Below are positions 8,006-14,219 of a stretch of 33,146 nucleotides of DNA, one piece after another. The stretch's first letter is position 1, and the number at the start of each line of letters is the position of its first letter. The translations under genes and the position numbers were made by a program. Origin of the DNA: an uncultured Lentisphaerota bacterium (lineage in GTDB: Bacteria; Verrucomicrobiota; Kiritimatiellia; RFP12; UBA1067); the NCBI GenBank assembly GCA_900321575.1, contig ONWT01000062.1, positions 1 through 33,146 on the forward strand. The letters are read 5' to 3'. The notes under the pieces are model-generated. The model searched no databases and was not told the DNA's origin. It worked only from the letters and a program-made list of their open reading frames with translations.

Positions 8006-8031
8006 TTTCGCCGCATCCACCGCAAAATTTT

Positions 8032-8048: not shown

Positions 8049-9785
8049 ATGTCCGAATTCAAGCTAACCGATCCGTTTGGCTCCGCACCGTCGAAGCCGC
8101 CGTTCAAGCAGAGCGTATCTACAGGTGTGCCGTGGCACAACCTGCCGATTACGCGTGAATATACGCTCGGCCAGTTGCTAGACCAGACCATAGCCCGCTG
8201 CGGCGAGAATGATGCGGTGGTCTACGCAGACCGCGATTATCGACTTACGTGGTATGAATTCGGTGAGGAAGTGGACCTCGTCGCCAAGGGGCTCATGGCG
8301 CTTGGCGTGAAGCGGGGCGAGAAAGTCGCGCTTTGGGCTACGAACGTGCCGCACTGGGTCGTGCTGATGTTCGCGACAGCGAAGATCGGCGCGGTATTGC
8401 TGCCGCTGAACATAAACTACAAGTCGGCGGAGATAGATTTTGCGCTGAAGCAGTCCGACGCGGAAAATCTGTTTCTCATAAACGGCTACCGCGACTGCGA
8501 CTATGTGGAGACGCTGAACAAGCTCATTCCGGAGCTGAAGGAATGTCCGCGCGGCGAGTTGAAGAGCGCCAAATATCCGTGCCTGAAGCGCGTGTTCTTC
8601 CTGGGCGGCGAGAAACATCGCGGCATGTATTCCCTCAACGAGGTGAAGAGCCTCGCGGCGGAGACGACGACCGAAGAGTATCTCAAGCGCCAAAGCGAGG
8701 TTGATGTAAACGATATTGTGAACATGCAGTACACGAGCGGAACCACGGGTTTCCCGAAAGGCGTGCAGCTGACCCACCGCAATATCGCGAACGACGGCTT
8801 CTGGATCGGGGCGTGCCAAAACCTGAGCTCCAGAGACCGCGTGTGCATACCCGTGCCGCTTTTCCACTGCTTCGGCTGCGTGCTGGGGGTGATGAGTTGC
8901 GTGAACCACGGGTCTACGATGGTGTTTCTGGAGAAATTCGACCCTGTGCAGGTGATGACCTCGATAGAACGCGAGAAGTGCACTGCGACATATGGCGTGC
9001 CGACGATGTATATCGCGATGCTGGACCATCCTCTGTTCAGCAGGTTTGATTTCAGGTCGCTCAGGACGGGCATAATGTCCGGCTCGGCGTGTCCTGTTCA
9101 TCGCATGCAGCAGGCACAGACCAAGATGTTCATGCGCGAGATCACAAATCCGTACGGATTGACGGAATCTGGCCCTGTGATGACGATGACCCGCTATTTC
9201 GAAGAGTCCATCGACCGCAAGTGCAAGACGATCGGGCAGGCGCTGCCCGGCGTGGAGGTCGCCATCATAGACCCCGAGACGGGAGATCTCGCGCCGCTCG
9301 GTACGGATGGCGAGATATGCTGCCGCGGCTACAACACCATGAAGGGCTACTACAAGATGCCCGAGCAGACCGCCAAGTGCATCGACAAGAACGGGTGGCT
9401 GCATTCCGGCGATATCGGCAAGATGGACGAGCAGGGCTACTTCTACATAACGGGGCGGCTCAAAGACCTCATCATCCGCGGCGGCGAAAACATCAGCCCC
9501 AAGGAGGTCGAGGACTTCCTCGGCACGATGCCTGGCGTGAAGGATGTCGCTGTCGTAGGATGCCCCTCGAAGAAATACGGCGAGCAGCCTGCCGCCTTCA
9601 TAATCCCCTCCGATGGAGCGGAATTGAAGGAAGAGGACGTCGCAGAGTTCTGCAAGGACAAGATATCGTGGTTCAAGATTCCGAAATACGTGCATTTCTT
9701 GGACGTATTCCCGATGACCGCCTCGCAGAAGATCCAGAAATACAAGCTGCGCGAAATGGCGCACGAGCTCTGGCCGAACGCCTGA
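8049..9785 (+). CDS. Acyl-CoA synthetase (AMP-forming, FadD/ANL family)
   Basis: Activates a carboxylic acid to acyl-AMP and then acyl-CoA. The 578-residue chain has the ANL-family motifs in order: the phosphate-binding loop YTSGTTGFPKG at 228-238, the adenine motif NPYGLTESGP, the GWLHSGDIGKMDEQGY aspartate motif, the hinge GRLKDLIIRGGENISP, and near the C-terminus ASQKIQKYKLRE with the catalytic Lys at about 561 (usually GKI, here QKI). Best match in memory is to medium/long-chain fatty-acyl-CoA synthetases. It starts 8 bases after TATAAT with no Shine-Dalgarno site. A FadL-type channel gene lies 440 bases downstream of its stop, which supports a role in using imported fatty acids, but no beta-oxidation genes are nearby; lipid recycling is an alternative. 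Confidence 0.9.
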   Translation: MSEFKLTDPFGSAPSKPPFKQSVSTGVPWHNLPITREYTLGQLLDQTIARCGENDAVVYADRDYRLTWYEFGEEVDLVAKGLMALGVKRGEKVALWATNVPHWVVLMFATAKIGAVLLPLNINYKSAEIDFALKQSDAENLFLINGYRDCDYVETLNKLIPELKECPRGELKSAKYPCLKRVFFLGGEKHRGMYSLNEVKSLAAETTTEEYLKRQSEVDVNDIVNMQYTSGTTGFPKGVQLTHRNIANDGFWIGACQNLSSRDRVCIPVPLFHCFGCVLGVMSCVNHGSTMVFLEKFDPVQVMTSIEREKCTATYGVPTMYIAMLDHPLFSRFDFRSLRTGIMSGSACPVHRMQQAQTKMFMREITNPYGLTESGPVMTMTRYFEESIDRKCKTIGQALPGVEVAIIDPETGDLAPLGTDGEICCRGYNTMKGYYKMPEQTAKCIDKNGWLHSGDIGKMDEQGYFYITGRLKDLIIRGGENISPKEVEDFLGTMPGVKDVAVVGCPSKKYGEQPAAFIIPSDGAELKEEDVAEFCKDKISWFKIPKYVHFLDVFPMTASQKIQKYKLREMAHELWPNA

Positions 9786-9794
9786 TATCGGGCA

Positions 9795-10151
9795 ATGTTC
9801 TGGCGGCGAAGCGATGAACTGGCGACGGTGAGGATTGACCCGTACAATCCGTCGCCGGAGTTTCTCCGCGACTGTTTCGCCGAGATATTCGCTTCACTTG
9901 ACGAGCGGCCGCGCAGGCTTCGCGTGGATGTCTACGCGGGGAGCGCATCGCGCTCGGAGACGGTCATGACAATGGTGGAGGGCAACCCTGTTTTCGTAAT
10001 AGACGGGAACGGCGTCATGTGCGCCAATTTCAGGCGGCGCTGGCTTGCGGAGCATCCAGTGCCGCTCGTATTCGGCCAGGACAAACCCACCAAACTCGTC
10101 ATGATACCAACGACAGGAAACAGAGTGAAGGTCCGGCGGTGCATGTTTTGA
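9795..10151 (+). CDS. Hypothetical protein, 118 residues
   Basis: I do not recognise this protein. It begins 9 bases after the acyl-CoA synthetase stop, without an obvious Shine-Dalgarno site, and has codon use like its neighbours. It is basic and has no membrane segment or signal peptide. Visible features are an early RIDPYNPSPEFL, a beta-like core (RLRVDVYAGSASRSE), a stretch VMTMVEGNPVFVIDGNG, and a basic end (TGNRVKVRRCMF). The arrangement suggests a small alpha/beta protein. Position suggests co-transcription with the synthetase. Its TGA stop lies within the left arm of the first candidate operator of the fadL promoter. Confidence 0.6.
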   Translation: MFWRRSDELATVRIDPYNPSPEFLRDCFAEIFASLDERPRRLRVDVYAGSASRSETVMTMVEGNPVFVIDGNGVMCANFRRRWLAEHPVPLVFGQDKPTKLVMIPTTGNRVKVRRCMF

Positions 10152-10172
10152 CAAAATTCGCTATTGTGTCAT
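10148..10172 (+). promoter_or_regulatory. Candidate operator 1 (TTGACA-N13-TGTCAT)
   Basis: TTGACA at 10148-10153 and TGTCA at 10167-10171 form an inverted repeat with a 13-base centre. It overlaps the -35 region of the fadL promoter. A second copy with identical spacing starts exactly 53 bases downstream. Likely target of the TetR protein encoded at 11514 (inference). Confidence 0.5.
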
Positions 10173-10192
10173 GCGAAAATATATGGTATAAT
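10164..10192 (+). promoter_or_regulatory. Promoter of the fadL-tetR unit
   Basis: TTGTGT at 10164-10169 as -35, a 17-base spacer, and TGG TATAAT at 10184-10192. Transcription should start near 10199, giving a leader of about 28 bases before ATG 10228. The core lies between two copies of an inverted repeat. Confidence 0.8.
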
Positions 10193-10200
10193 ACAAACAA

Positions 10201-10225
10201 TTGACACAAAAAAGGAAACTGTCAA
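10201..10225 (+). promoter_or_regulatory. Candidate operator 2 (TTGACA-N13-TGTCAA)
   Basis: Perfect 6-base arms TTGACA (10201-10206) and TGTCAA (10220-10225) separated by 13 bases, at or just after the predicted transcription start and covering the AAAGGA ribosome site. Same arm sequence and spacing as the upstream copy. Confidence 0.55.
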
Positions 10226-10227
10226 CT

Positions 10228-11514
10228 ATGAAGAAACTAGTAATCGCTGTTCCTGTCGTTCTCGCGGCTTGTGCAGTTCACGCTGCAGGCTTCGGCATAT
10301 ATGAGGCTTCTGCACGCGGCAATGCCGTCGGCGACGCCCTTGTCGGCGAGACTGACACGGTCGATGCTTCGGCAAACTACTACAACCCGGCCAATATCGC
10401 ATTCGCCGAAAAGGTCCAGTTTGCCGCAGGTGCGTCGTTCATCAATCCTTACTGCGATGTCGATGTCGACCACAAGTCGCAGGACAGGATGAATCCGGGC
10501 TGGTTCACTGTACCCACATTCTTCATGACGGTTCCCGTAGGCGCCGGCTTTACGCTCGGCTGGGGCAACTACACGGAGTATGGCCTCGGTTCGCGTTACG
10601 GAACTGGCTGGGATCTCGCCGGCGATACGCAGAAGACGACGATGCGCCAGGTGACGCTCAACCCGAATCTCGCCTACAAGATCACCGACAGGTGGAGCGT
10701 TTCCACAGGCCCCAGGATAAGCTGGATACAATTCACGAACCACAAGCAGCCGTACCACGGCGATTCGTTCTATTACAACCATCCTCTTTACGGAACGCTT
10801 TCGGTGCCGAACGCCTACAATCTGCGCACGAAGCTGAAGGGTGACGACTGGGGTCTCGGCTACAATGTGGCGACTTCGTTCAAGGTGACGGATACTGTTT
10901 CGGTAGGCCTCATCTACAGGTCGCAGATGCGTCACAAGATAAAGGGGAATTTCGATCTCAAAGGCGATGTGACGACTCCGCTCGGCGCGATGCCGCAGAC
11001 GGTGCACGGTCCCGCGAGCGCCGTTCTCACTCTGCCGCGCTCTGTCGTGCTCGGCATCAACTGGCGCGCGACCGAAAAGTGGCGTCTGGGCGTGGCCGCC
11101 ACCTGGACGGAATGGTCGAGCGTGAAGAACATACACTTCCGTCTGCCTGAGAACTACAGCTACACGCAGCATCTCAAGTGGCACAACACGGGCCGTTTCG
11201 GCTTCGGTACCGAATACGATCTTTACGACTGGCTGACCGTCCGCGGCGGCTATGTGTATGACATGGACCCGACCGACAAGCACAACAGCACGACGATGCT
11301 GCCGGCCGGCGACCGCCACATCATGAGCGGCGGTCTGGGCTTCAAGCTCGCCGAAAACCTCTGGCTCGATGTCGGCTACACATTCATACGCATGACCAAC
11401 GACGACCGCGTCATCGCGCTGGCCCATACCGATGGCACTGTCAAGGAGCACAAATTCTCGACCCACAACGGTTTCTCGCACATTGCCTCCGCGACGCTCC
11501 GTTATTCGTTCTGA
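10228..11514 (+). CDS. FadL/OmpP1-type outer-membrane channel
   Basis: A 428-residue outer-membrane beta-barrel of the FadL family, which takes up long-chain fatty acids or other hydrophobic compounds. It has a Sec signal peptide (MKKLVIAVPVVLAACAVHAA) and the family's mature N-terminus GFGIYEASARGNAVGDA, followed by YYNPANIAFAEK (the conserved NPA region) and alternating barrel strands to a final aromatic RYSF. LAAC inside the signal could also be read as a lipobox, but FadL proteins normally use signal peptidase I. ATG 10228 is preferred, with AAAGGA at 10211-10216; an in-frame TTG at 10201 lies 8 bases after TATAAT and would be a leaderless alternative. The stop overlaps the tetR start by one base (TGATG), so channel and regulator are probably co-expressed. 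Confidence 0.88.
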   Translation: MKKLVIAVPVVLAACAVHAAGFGIYEASARGNAVGDALVGETDTVDASANYYNPANIAFAEKVQFAAGASFINPYCDVDVDHKSQDRMNPGWFTVPTFFMTVPVGAGFTLGWGNYTEYGLGSRYGTGWDLAGDTQKTTMRQVTLNPNLAYKITDRWSVSTGPRISWIQFTNHKQPYHGDSFYYNHPLYGTLSVPNAYNLRTKLKGDDWGLGYNVATSFKVTDTVSVGLIYRSQMRHKIKGNFDLKGDVTTPLGAMPQTVHGPASAVLTLPRSVVLGINWRATEKWRLGVAATWTEWSSVKNIHFRLPENYSYTQHLKWHNTGRFGFGTEYDLYDWLTVRGGYVYDMDPTDKHNSTTMLPAGDRHIMSGGLGFKLAENLWLDVGYTFIRMTNDDRVIALAHTDGTVKEHKFSTHNGFSHIASATLRYSF

Positions 11515-12140
11515 TGGCGAAGAAGAGCGCGATAAACCACAAAGAACGCAAGCGCGAAATCCGTGCTGCAGGGCTGAAGCTTTTCGCCCGGCACGGATTC
11601 GCCGATGTGAACTTTGGCATGATTGCGGAAGAGTGCGGCATCGCCCGCACTCTTATCTATACCTATTTCAAGGACAAGCGCGCCATTTTCAACGAGGCCG
11701 TGAAGGAGGCGACATCGACGGTCGAGACCCAATATCGCGAAATAATGCGAAGCCGTCAGTCCGCCGACGCAAAACTGCGCCAGCTTTGCGTAGCGGTGTT
11801 CGCCATGCTGTTCGACAATCGCGACTTTTTGTGCGTCATAGTCGATTTTCTCTGCGAGTTTCGTCGCAAGGGCAGCATACCCGTCGACAACATAATGCGC
11901 CATACGGTCGGGCTGAAGCGTATAATCCACTCGCTTATCGTCGAAGCGAAACATCGCGGCGAGTACGAGGCGGCGCTGGATCCAAACCGCGCGACATCGC
12001 TCATCTATTCGCAGTTCGAGGTTGCGGTTTTGCGGATTGCGGTTTCGGGAGACGCGCAGCTTTCCGACAGCATCGACAAGATGAACGCCATACTTTTGGC
12101 GTTCCGGTCCCAAGAGGGCGTTTTGCGCCGGTTCAACTGA
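11514..12140 (+). CDS. TetR/AcrR-family transcriptional regulator
   Basis: A 208-residue one-component repressor. The N-terminal helix-turn-helix is typical: GLKLFARHGFADVNFGMIAE leads into CGIARTLIYTYFKDKRAIF (roughly residues 20-60). The C-terminal ligand-binding half is variable and all helical. It is translated by a one-base overlap with the FadL-type gene and so probably controls that unit itself; the paired inverted repeats around the fadL promoter are the natural binding candidates. By analogy with FadR-type TetR proteins the ligand may be a fatty acid or acyl-CoA, but this is inference from the neighbours. Confidence 0.9.
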   Translation: MAKKSAINHKERKREIRAAGLKLFARHGFADVNFGMIAEECGIARTLIYTYFKDKRAIFNEAVKEATSTVETQYREIMRSRQSADAKLRQLCVAVFAMLFDNRDFLCVIVDFLCEFRRKGSIPVDNIMRHTVGLKRIIHSLIVEAKHRGEYEAALDPNRATSLIYSQFEVAVLRIAVSGDAQLSDSIDKMNAILLAFRSQEGVLRRFN

Positions 12141-12213: not shown

Positions 12214-13326
12214 ATGTCTGGGACAGGTTCAACATACAATCTGGACGATCTTCTCGATCGTGCCTTATCTTCGCCGCTGGCTCTCTCGTCCGGCGAGATG
12301 GCTTATTTGCTTTCGCTGGGCGATGACGCAGACGTCGCGAAGCTTCACGCCGCTGCGAGAAGCGTCAAGCTCAAGTGCTGCGGGCGCGGGGTGTCAGTTC
12401 GCGGACTTGTCGAGGCGGGCAACATTTGCGCTAAGGACTGTCTCTATTGCGGCATAAGAAAGAGCAATGCCGAGGTAGAGCGATATTCGCTGGACGCGGA
12501 TTCCATCGTAGCGGCGGCGCAGGAGGCGAAATCGCTGGGCTACGCATCGCTTGTGATCCAGAGCGGCGAAATAGAAAGCGAGGCCCATACGCAATTCATC
12601 GAGACGGTTCTCGGGCGGATAAAGCCGCTCGATCTCGGTGTGACTCTTTCGCTTGGCGAGCAGACGGAAGAGGTTTATGCGCGTTGGCGCGAAGCCGGCG
12701 CAGAGCGCTATCTTTTGAGAATCGAGACGTCCGATCCGGCGCTGTACGCCACGATACACCCGGCAGAGTGCCGCTGGGAGCGCCGCGCGGAATGCCTGCG
12801 CGCCTTGCGCCGCACAGGCTACCAGGTAGGCACTGGGGTCATGTGCGCGCTGCCCGGGCAGACGTTCGCCAGCCTGGCGCACGATATAGAGTTTTACGGC
12901 GGAATCGACGCGGACATGATAGGCATGGGGCCGTATATTCCCCATCCCTCGACTCCGCTCGGACAGAACGCGCAGTTCGACCCGAAGCGGGCGCTTTCGC
13001 TCGCTCTCAATATGATAGCGGTAACGAGGCTTTATCTCCACGACATAAACATCGCGGCCGCGACGGCTCTCCAGGCGCTCGCCGACGACGGACGCGAACG
13101 GGGCGTAATGGCCGGCGCGAATGTGATAATGCCGAACGTGACCGACACGCGCTACCGCCGCGCATACAAGTTGTACAGCAACAAGCCGTGCCTGGACGAG
13201 GCCGCAACAATGTGCCGAGCCTGTTTGGACAGAAGGCTCGCGGCGATCGGCGAGGAGCTTCTTTTGGGACAGCGCGGCGACAGCCCGCATTTTCACAGGA
13301 GGATGGATAAATGCCTGAAAGCATAA
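12214..13326 (+). CDS. hydE: [FeFe] hydrogenase maturase HydE (radical SAM)
   Basis: Radical-SAM enzyme that helps build the organometallic H-cluster of [FeFe] hydrogenase. The 370-residue chain has the CX3CX2C cluster motif CAKDCLYCG (C72, C76, C79), the downstream LSLGEQTEEVYARWREAGAE, YLLRIETSDPALY, GTGVMCALPGQT and DMIGMGPYIPHPSTPL, all in HydE order. Near the end three cysteines at 326, 334 and 337 match the spacing of the optional second cluster of Thermotoga maritima HydE. Biotin synthase and PylB are related alternatives but fit these motifs less well. No HydF, HydG or hydrogenase lies in the window. It is leaderless by position, and its end overlaps nadA by 16 bases. Confidence 0.88.
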   Translation: MSGTGSTYNLDDLLDRALSSPLALSSGEMAYLLSLGDDADVAKLHAAARSVKLKCCGRGVSVRGLVEAGNICAKDCLYCGIRKSNAEVERYSLDADSIVAAAQEAKSLGYASLVIQSGEIESEAHTQFIETVLGRIKPLDLGVTLSLGEQTEEVYARWREAGAERYLLRIETSDPALYATIHPAECRWERRAECLRALRRTGYQVGTGVMCALPGQTFASLAHDIEFYGGIDADMIGMGPYIPHPSTPLGQNAQFDPKRALSLALNMIAVTRLYLHDINIAAATALQALADDGRERGVMAGANVIMPNVTDTRYRRAYKLYSNKPCLDEAATMCRACLDRRLAAIGEELLLGQRGDSPHFHRRMDKCLKA

Positions 13327-14219
13327 CCGATGAAATAAACCGCCTCAAGAAAGAGCGCAAAGCGGTGATACTCGCGCACAACTATCAGCGGGCGGAAGTC
13401 CAGGCGATTGCCGATTTCACGGGCGATTCTCTGGAGCTGGCGCGCAAGGCGACGCAGGTCGAGGCCGATGTGATAGCGTTTTGCGGCGTCTACTTCATGG
13501 CCGAGACGGCGGCGATACTGAACGCCTCGAAAACAGTGCTGATACCGGACGCGTCTGCCGGGTGCCCCATGGCCGACATGATAACGGGCGAACAGCTCAG
13601 GGCGCTGAAGGCCAAGCATCCCGGCGCGATTGCGGTATGCTACGTCAACTCGACGGCCGAAGTGAAGGCCGAGTGCGACATCTGCGTAACATCCGGCAAT
13701 GCGGAGAAGATTATGGCGTCCCTGCCAAAGGGACGCGAGGTGCTGTTTGTGCCGGATCAGCACCTTGGCGGATATATCGCCGACAAGCGCGGCGAAAAGT
13801 ACGTGTTGTGGCCGGGGTGCTGTCCCACGCACCAGCGGCTCACGGCCAAAAAGATCGCCGATGCCCGTGCGGCCCATCCTGGCGCGCCGGTGCTGGTACA
13901 TCCCGAGTGTCCGAAAGACGTGCGCGATGCCGCCGACGAGTGCCTGTCGACGGGCGGAATGTGCGCCTATGCCAGAAAGTCGGATGCGCGCGAGATAATC
14001 GTCGGCACCGAGATCGGCATACTTTACCGGCTGAGAACCGAGAATCCCGGAAAGACGTTCTGGCCGGTGGATGATGCGACCGTCTGTCCAAACATGAAAA
14101 AGACCACGCTCGAAAACCTGCGCGACTGCCTGCGCGACTTGTCGCCGCGGGTCACGGTGGCGCCTGATATCGCATCAAAGGCGAAGAGGGCGATCGACGC
14201 CATGTTGGCTGTATCGTAA
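13311..14219 (+). CDS. nadA: Quinolinate synthase NadA
   Basis: Condenses iminoaspartate with dihydroxyacetone phosphate to quinolinate in NAD synthesis, using a [4Fe-4S] cluster. The 302 residues start with AVILAHNYQRAEVQAIADF and include the three cluster cysteines: C85 in GCPMAD, C170 in GCCPTHQ (C171 is the adjacent alternative) and C259 in CPNMKK. HPECPKDV and GTEIGILYRL are also typical. The length matches the short, cluster-only form of the family. AGGAGG (13297-13302) lies 8 bases before the ATG, inside hydE. NadB and NadC are not in the window. Sharing a unit with hydE joins two iron-sulfur enzymes, possibly because both are oxygen sensitive (inference). Confidence 0.95.
   Translation: MPESITDEINRLKKERKAVILAHNYQRAEVQAIADFTGDSLELARKATQVEADVIAFCGVYFMAETAAILNASKTVLIPDASAGCPMADMITGEQLRALKAKHPGAIAVCYVNSTAEVKAECDICVTSGNAEKIMASLPKGREVLFVPDQHLGGYIADKRGEKYVLWPGCCPTHQRLTAKKIADARAAHPGAPVLVHPECPKDVRDAADECLSTGGMCAYARKSDAREIIVGTEIGILYRLRTENPGKTFWPVDDATVCPNMKKTTLENLRDCLRDLSPRVTVAPDIASKAKRAIDAMLAVS

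Follow-up and report, generated by a model that had tools for sequence, protein, structure and literature searches.

Palindromes at the fadL promoter of an uncultured gut bacterium are probable operators of the TetR-family protein encoded in the same transcription unit

The fadL gene of E. coli is regulated by a GntR-family FadR, and both the regulator family and the operator are unrelated to the TetR system described here. The closest described TetR-family regulators are the FadR proteins of Bacillus, which respond to acyl-CoA and control beta-oxidation genes (B. subtilis, structures 3whb and 3whc; B. halodurans, 5gp9), and those of Thermus thermophilus and Sulfolobus acidocaldarius, which have palindromic operators of 15 bp (TTRNACYNRGTNYAA, PMC5597230) and 16 bp at fatty-acid genes. 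Some operators of S. acidocaldarius FadR are bound by two dimers cooperatively (PMC6449355). Across TetR–DNA structures, operators of single dimers measure 15–17 bp and those of pairs of dimers measure 22–32 bp (PMC4150764).

The window analyzed here, a 33,146-nucleotide contig (ONWT01000062.1), comes from a genus of Kiritimatiellae known mostly from ruminant-gut metagenomes. Its forward strand carries fadL (10228–11514, ATG at 10228), encoding a 428-aa outer-membrane channel of the Toluene_X/OMPP1-FadL-TodX family whose Pfam match (PF03349, E 1.3e-72) spans residues 11–428 and so covers most of the protein length. The start codon of tetR (11514–12140, forward strand, 208 aa) overlaps the fadL stop as TGATG, and its product has the N-terminal TetR helix–turn–helix domain (TetR_N, PF00440, E 3.8e-13). 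Upstream of fadL lie a CoA-ligase gene (8049–9785) and a 118-aa open reading frame (9795–10151) without a family match in Pfam or NCBIfam; directly after tetR there are a HydE-like radical SAM maturase gene and then nadA (12214–14219). The predicted fadL promoter (10164–10192, forward strand) consists of a −35 element TTGTGT (10164–10169), a 17-bp spacer, and a −10 element TATAAT (10187–10192) that aligns among the fadL promoters of relatives, which would place the transcription start at about 10199–10200.

Two palindromes, O1 (10148–10172) and O2 (10201–10225), occupy this promoter region, and on the basis of sequence comparison with about 50 relatives, in which fadL has one or two such copies, we consider it highly likely that both act as operators for the product of tetR, the second gene of the unit, and serve repression and autoregulation. 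The initial annotation had described twin inverted repeats with the same arms that start at 10148 and 10201, 53 bp apart, and both are exact: TTGACA-N13-TGTCA occurs at 10148–10171 (TTGACAAAATTCGCTATTGTGTCA), followed by T in O1, and at 10201–10224 (TTGACACAAAAAAGGAAACTGTCA), extending in O2 to a perfect TTGACA-N13-TGTCAA at 10225, and the common core TGACA-N13-TGTCA lies at 10149–10171 and 10202–10224. Their 13-base centers, which had been called the same, are equal in length and differ in sequence (AAATTCGCTATTG versus CAAAAAAGGAAAC). O1 had been assigned to the −35, which holds for its right half, overlapping TTGTGT at 10164–10169, but not for the TTGACA at 10148 itself. O2 had been placed on the start site and the ribosome site; it does cover the ribosome site AAGGA, but lies just after the predicted start and ahead of the fadL start codon. 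The 118-aa reading frame ends inside O1, where its TGA stop is overlapped by the first arm. When the 141-bp region was shuffled 4000 times, two inverted repeats sharing a 5-bp arm and a spacer length arose in only 4 cases (p about 0.001), and the genome search that the annotation had called for returned only O1 and O2 as mismatch-free copies of TGACA-N13-TGTCA in the 1.44-Mb, 82%-complete assembly.

The palindrome is conserved in the genus. Among 61 genomes, mostly from the ruminant gut, we scanned 250 bp upstream of those fadL copies that could be retrieved and found [TC]GACA-N13-TGTC[AG] in 43 regions, so that the arms pass the test of conservation in relatives on which the annotation had staked its reading. 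Spacers of 0–12 and 14–20 gave 0 or 1 match each in the same scan. A weaker signal at spacers of 21–24 derives, at least in clade B and as judged by eye, from the −35 just before the arm; in this clade (L056, L080, L058, and similar loci) a −35 of TTGACA, TTGACG, or TTGACT a few bases ahead of the arm creates a secondary TGACA-N21/22-TGTC pattern. Among 38 fadL regions collected earlier, TGACA was the top arm at N13 among all 1024 5-mers (25/38), followed by CGACA (5/38), the clade-B variant. O2-class sites occur in about 20 relatives, and the position and sequence class of O1 recur in G006, G007, G001, and G010. The operator overlaps the −35, the −10, or the start region in the clades examined: in clade A it follows the −10 and precedes the start codon, and in clade B and in G016 and G024 it overlaps the −10. 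To shift relative to the promoter and yet stay at a blocking place is the behavior expected of a repressor site; neither a promoter element nor an RNA hairpin would be expected to show it.

If O1 and O2 are operators of this TetR, it is an even question whether they act together. The two sites may instead be independent, O1 being an auxiliary operator gained in some sublineages with no cooperative same-face contact, as is suggested by the fact that most relatives carry O2 alone and by other offsets of 110, 34, 36, and 26 bp. The twin arrangement is dispensable, because the close sister G064 lacks a conserved O1. On the other side, the doubled sites of clade A, three of which show a single mismatch within or close to the distal site, lie at offsets of 53, 54, 54, 55, 55, 73, 73, 74, 74, and 75 bp, or about five or seven turns of 10.5 bp; these ten cases go back to just two or three independent origins. 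For the same reason we make no statistical claim from helical phasing (resultant 0.82 at 10.5 bp), and same-face cooperation of O1 and O2 is no more than suggested by these spacings. The remaining offsets comprise one of 110 bp, a third site at 26 bp, and 34 or 36 bp in clade B. Three palindromes precede fadL in G001 (L033, 3232–3335; offsets 55 and 26 bp), and G010 and G025 have a decayed third copy. Each palindrome is likely to accommodate two TetR dimers, given that the arm centers are 18 bp apart and that the operator length of 23–27 bp falls among the dimer-pair class of structures introduced above; within the 13-base spacer, a search for inner half-sites showed A/T richness but no other clear symmetry.

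The regulator that binds these sites is very probably the TetR of the unit. The operator is present (one mismatch allowed) in every one of the 43 genomes in which the TetR was detected and the fadL promoter was readable, and among the 10 genomes with no detected TetR it is present in three and absent from seven (43/0/3/7; Fisher 8e-7, ignoring phylogeny). This association is partly an effect of paralogy, because the fadL copy of most genomes lacking the operator is a divergent one, and where a TetR-bearing genome has a second fadL, this copy is likewise without the site. The three genomes that combine an operator with an undetected TetR would favor a different, unlinked regulator, with tetR merely traveling alongside fadL; they are the draft assemblies G003, G081, and G075, the first two of which have fadL at a contig edge. 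We regard such a regulator as improbable given two further observations. Firstly, in two relatives from a different family, G038 and G043, tetR itself is preceded by the palindrome at a distance of 96–122 bp. Secondly, operator sequence follows TetR type where the two genes are unlinked, and does so against the fadL tree. In about 20 genomes tetR immediately follows fadL; in others it sits among unrelated genes, and the genomes in which it is unlinked (G005, G016, G024, G026, G012, and G032) keep the operator at fadL. In the clade-B genomes G002, G029, G014, G058, G065, and G078 the order is tetR, operator, fadL; the operator there lies between tetR and the downstream fadL, and tetR is thus not obviously under its control.

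The correspondence between operator and TetR extends to a single position, and this covariation is the strongest of the lines of evidence. TetR proteins with arginine at position 50 of the recognition helix (YRYF/YRYY) are matched by arms of the form TG[CT]GACA at the proximal site (14/14), those with threonine, alanine, glycine, or asparagine at this position by arms without that G (28/28), and the outgroup G043, with lysine, has one arm of each type. The window TetR has the recognition helix ARTLIYTYFKDKR, with Thr50. Operator type requires one change on the TetR tree (support 100/99, with a program warning of long branches), compared with seven changes to the G-type on the fadL tree, at least six of them forced by well-supported branches. 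G015 and G068 combine an A-lineage fadL and a G-type operator with an Arg-type TetR, and G012 and G032 combine a B-lineage fadL and a T-type operator with a Thr-type TetR, in each case on separate contigs. Operator type tracks the TetR and not the fadL lineage. Residue 50 is the obvious candidate for a contact to the operator arm base; we are cautious on this point since the division at residue 50 falls on a deep branching of the TetR tree, across which other residues differ too and could be responsible. In-frame TGA codons in some TetR relatives, considered as possible recoding, proved where traced to be the terminal stop read through. Taken together, the conservation of the operator, its covariation with residue 50, and the one change as opposed to at least six argue that the TetR very probably binds the palindrome and represses fadL-tetR, and they support the annotation's proposal of operators for the co-encoded TetR and hence of autoregulation.

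A second reading makes O2 a translational control hairpin in the leader of the fadL mRNA and explains O1 as a decayed or accidental copy; it appears very improbable. The O2 transcript can indeed fold into a 6-bp stem (UUGACA/UGUCAA) that leaves the ribosome site in its loop (−3.2 kcal/mol), but the stem is not more stable than those of shuffled sequences (z −0.83), O1 would not be transcribed either, and in clade B and in G016 and G024 the palindrome overlaps the −10 and is mostly untranscribed while its arms are still conserved; the covariation of an arm base with a residue of the DNA-recognition helix of TetR also counts against this reading. Least credible of all is that the arms are −35 elements of tandem or divergent promoters, for although TTGACA is the sigma-70 −35 consensus, no TTGACA of O1 or O2 lies 17 bp from TATAAT (for the one at 10148 the distance to the −10 is 33 bp, too large for a −35), both arms are conserved at a fixed N13 in the 43 upstream regions, and the palindrome changes its position relative to the −10 between clades.

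With the palindromes read as TetR operators, a simple switch can be proposed. The comparison of genomes shows, at the level of sequence, what the operator is, that it is linked to this TetR, and where on the promoter it stands; repression of fadL-tetR we infer from operator position, the palindrome overlapping the promoter of the unit that includes or adjoins tetR. Without inducer, TetR would occupy O2 and O1 and keep RNA polymerase from starting fadL-tetR, so that it would limit its own synthesis as well. TetR would then be released by an inducer, for which the likeliest candidate is a long-chain fatty acid or its acyl-CoA, derived from the material that FadL imports.

A fatty acid or acyl-CoA is a plausible inducer in view of a weak similarity of the TetR to FadR and of the fadL target. 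The structure model has a TetR fold (mean pLDDT 84.8) that matches Bacillus FadR over its full length (3whb, 3whc, 5gp9; Z about 17), and it matches KstR2, AcrR, and EthR equally well, for which reason we do not assign FadR identity from structure. Sequence identity to Bacillus FadR is about 20%, and the best NCBIfam match of the TetR is the Bacillus FadR model NF053878 at 54.1 bits, below the cut-off of 200. No ECH_1 (enoyl-CoA hydratase) protein was found in the six draft genomes G000, G006, G010, G012, G017, and G067, and no credible thiolase in G000, where the matches are partial (about 44 positions) and probably represent ketoacyl synthases. G000 has one acyl-CoA dehydrogenase gene, located beside a gene that by eye is EtfA-like, and all six genomes combine a regulated fadL-type gene with one acyl-CoA dehydrogenase. 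The lack of ECH_1 and of a credible thiolase makes a FadR-like role in degradation unlikely and fits control of uptake better than control of degradation.

Other candidate targets did not hold up. A match at 8031, which would have put an operator at the upstream CoA-ligase gene, has two mismatches and is within chance. Exact 25-mers elsewhere in relatives, considered as a wider regulon, are scattered, and most have G+C-rich centers and are probably coding; the A+T-rich copy (G001:C109) has a tRNA-like sequence, rather than a lipid gene, in its vicinity.

We tentatively sketch a fuller picture that seems rather doubtful as a whole: a lineage-wide, nearly single-target TetR switch that governs how bacteria lacking classical beta-oxidation take up lipids, with a wide N13 operator bound by dimer pairs, cooperative twin sites at five or seven turns, and Thr or Arg at residue 50 setting TTGACA or TG[CT]GACA, respectively. 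We found no description of a TetR–fadL operator in this lineage in the open-access literature; the genetic switch is new, and ordinary in type. Uncultured gut Kiritimatiellae thereby gain a regulator–operator pair with a precise code, and the pair offers a candidate natural case of a specificity change in a TetR recognition helix that involves one residue and a single base of the operator. For bacteria apparently without beta-oxidation, a further question is which substrates a regulated FadL takes up and what purpose they serve.

Compared with the systems introduced at the outset, the TetR described here resembles Bacillus FadR in its fold and in its linkage to fatty-acid handling. It differs from Bacillus FadR in that control of beta-oxidation did not emerge from these draft assemblies, the sole exact sites of this assembly being those at fadL. 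It shares with the FadR proteins of T. thermophilus and S. acidocaldarius the presence of palindromic operators at fatty-acid genes; their shorter operators are not of the TGACA-N13-TGTCA form. Finally, QacR and CprB, which bind as a dimer of dimers to operators of 22–32 bp (PMC4150764), are similar to this system in operator length only, their ligands and targets being different from those of this TetR.
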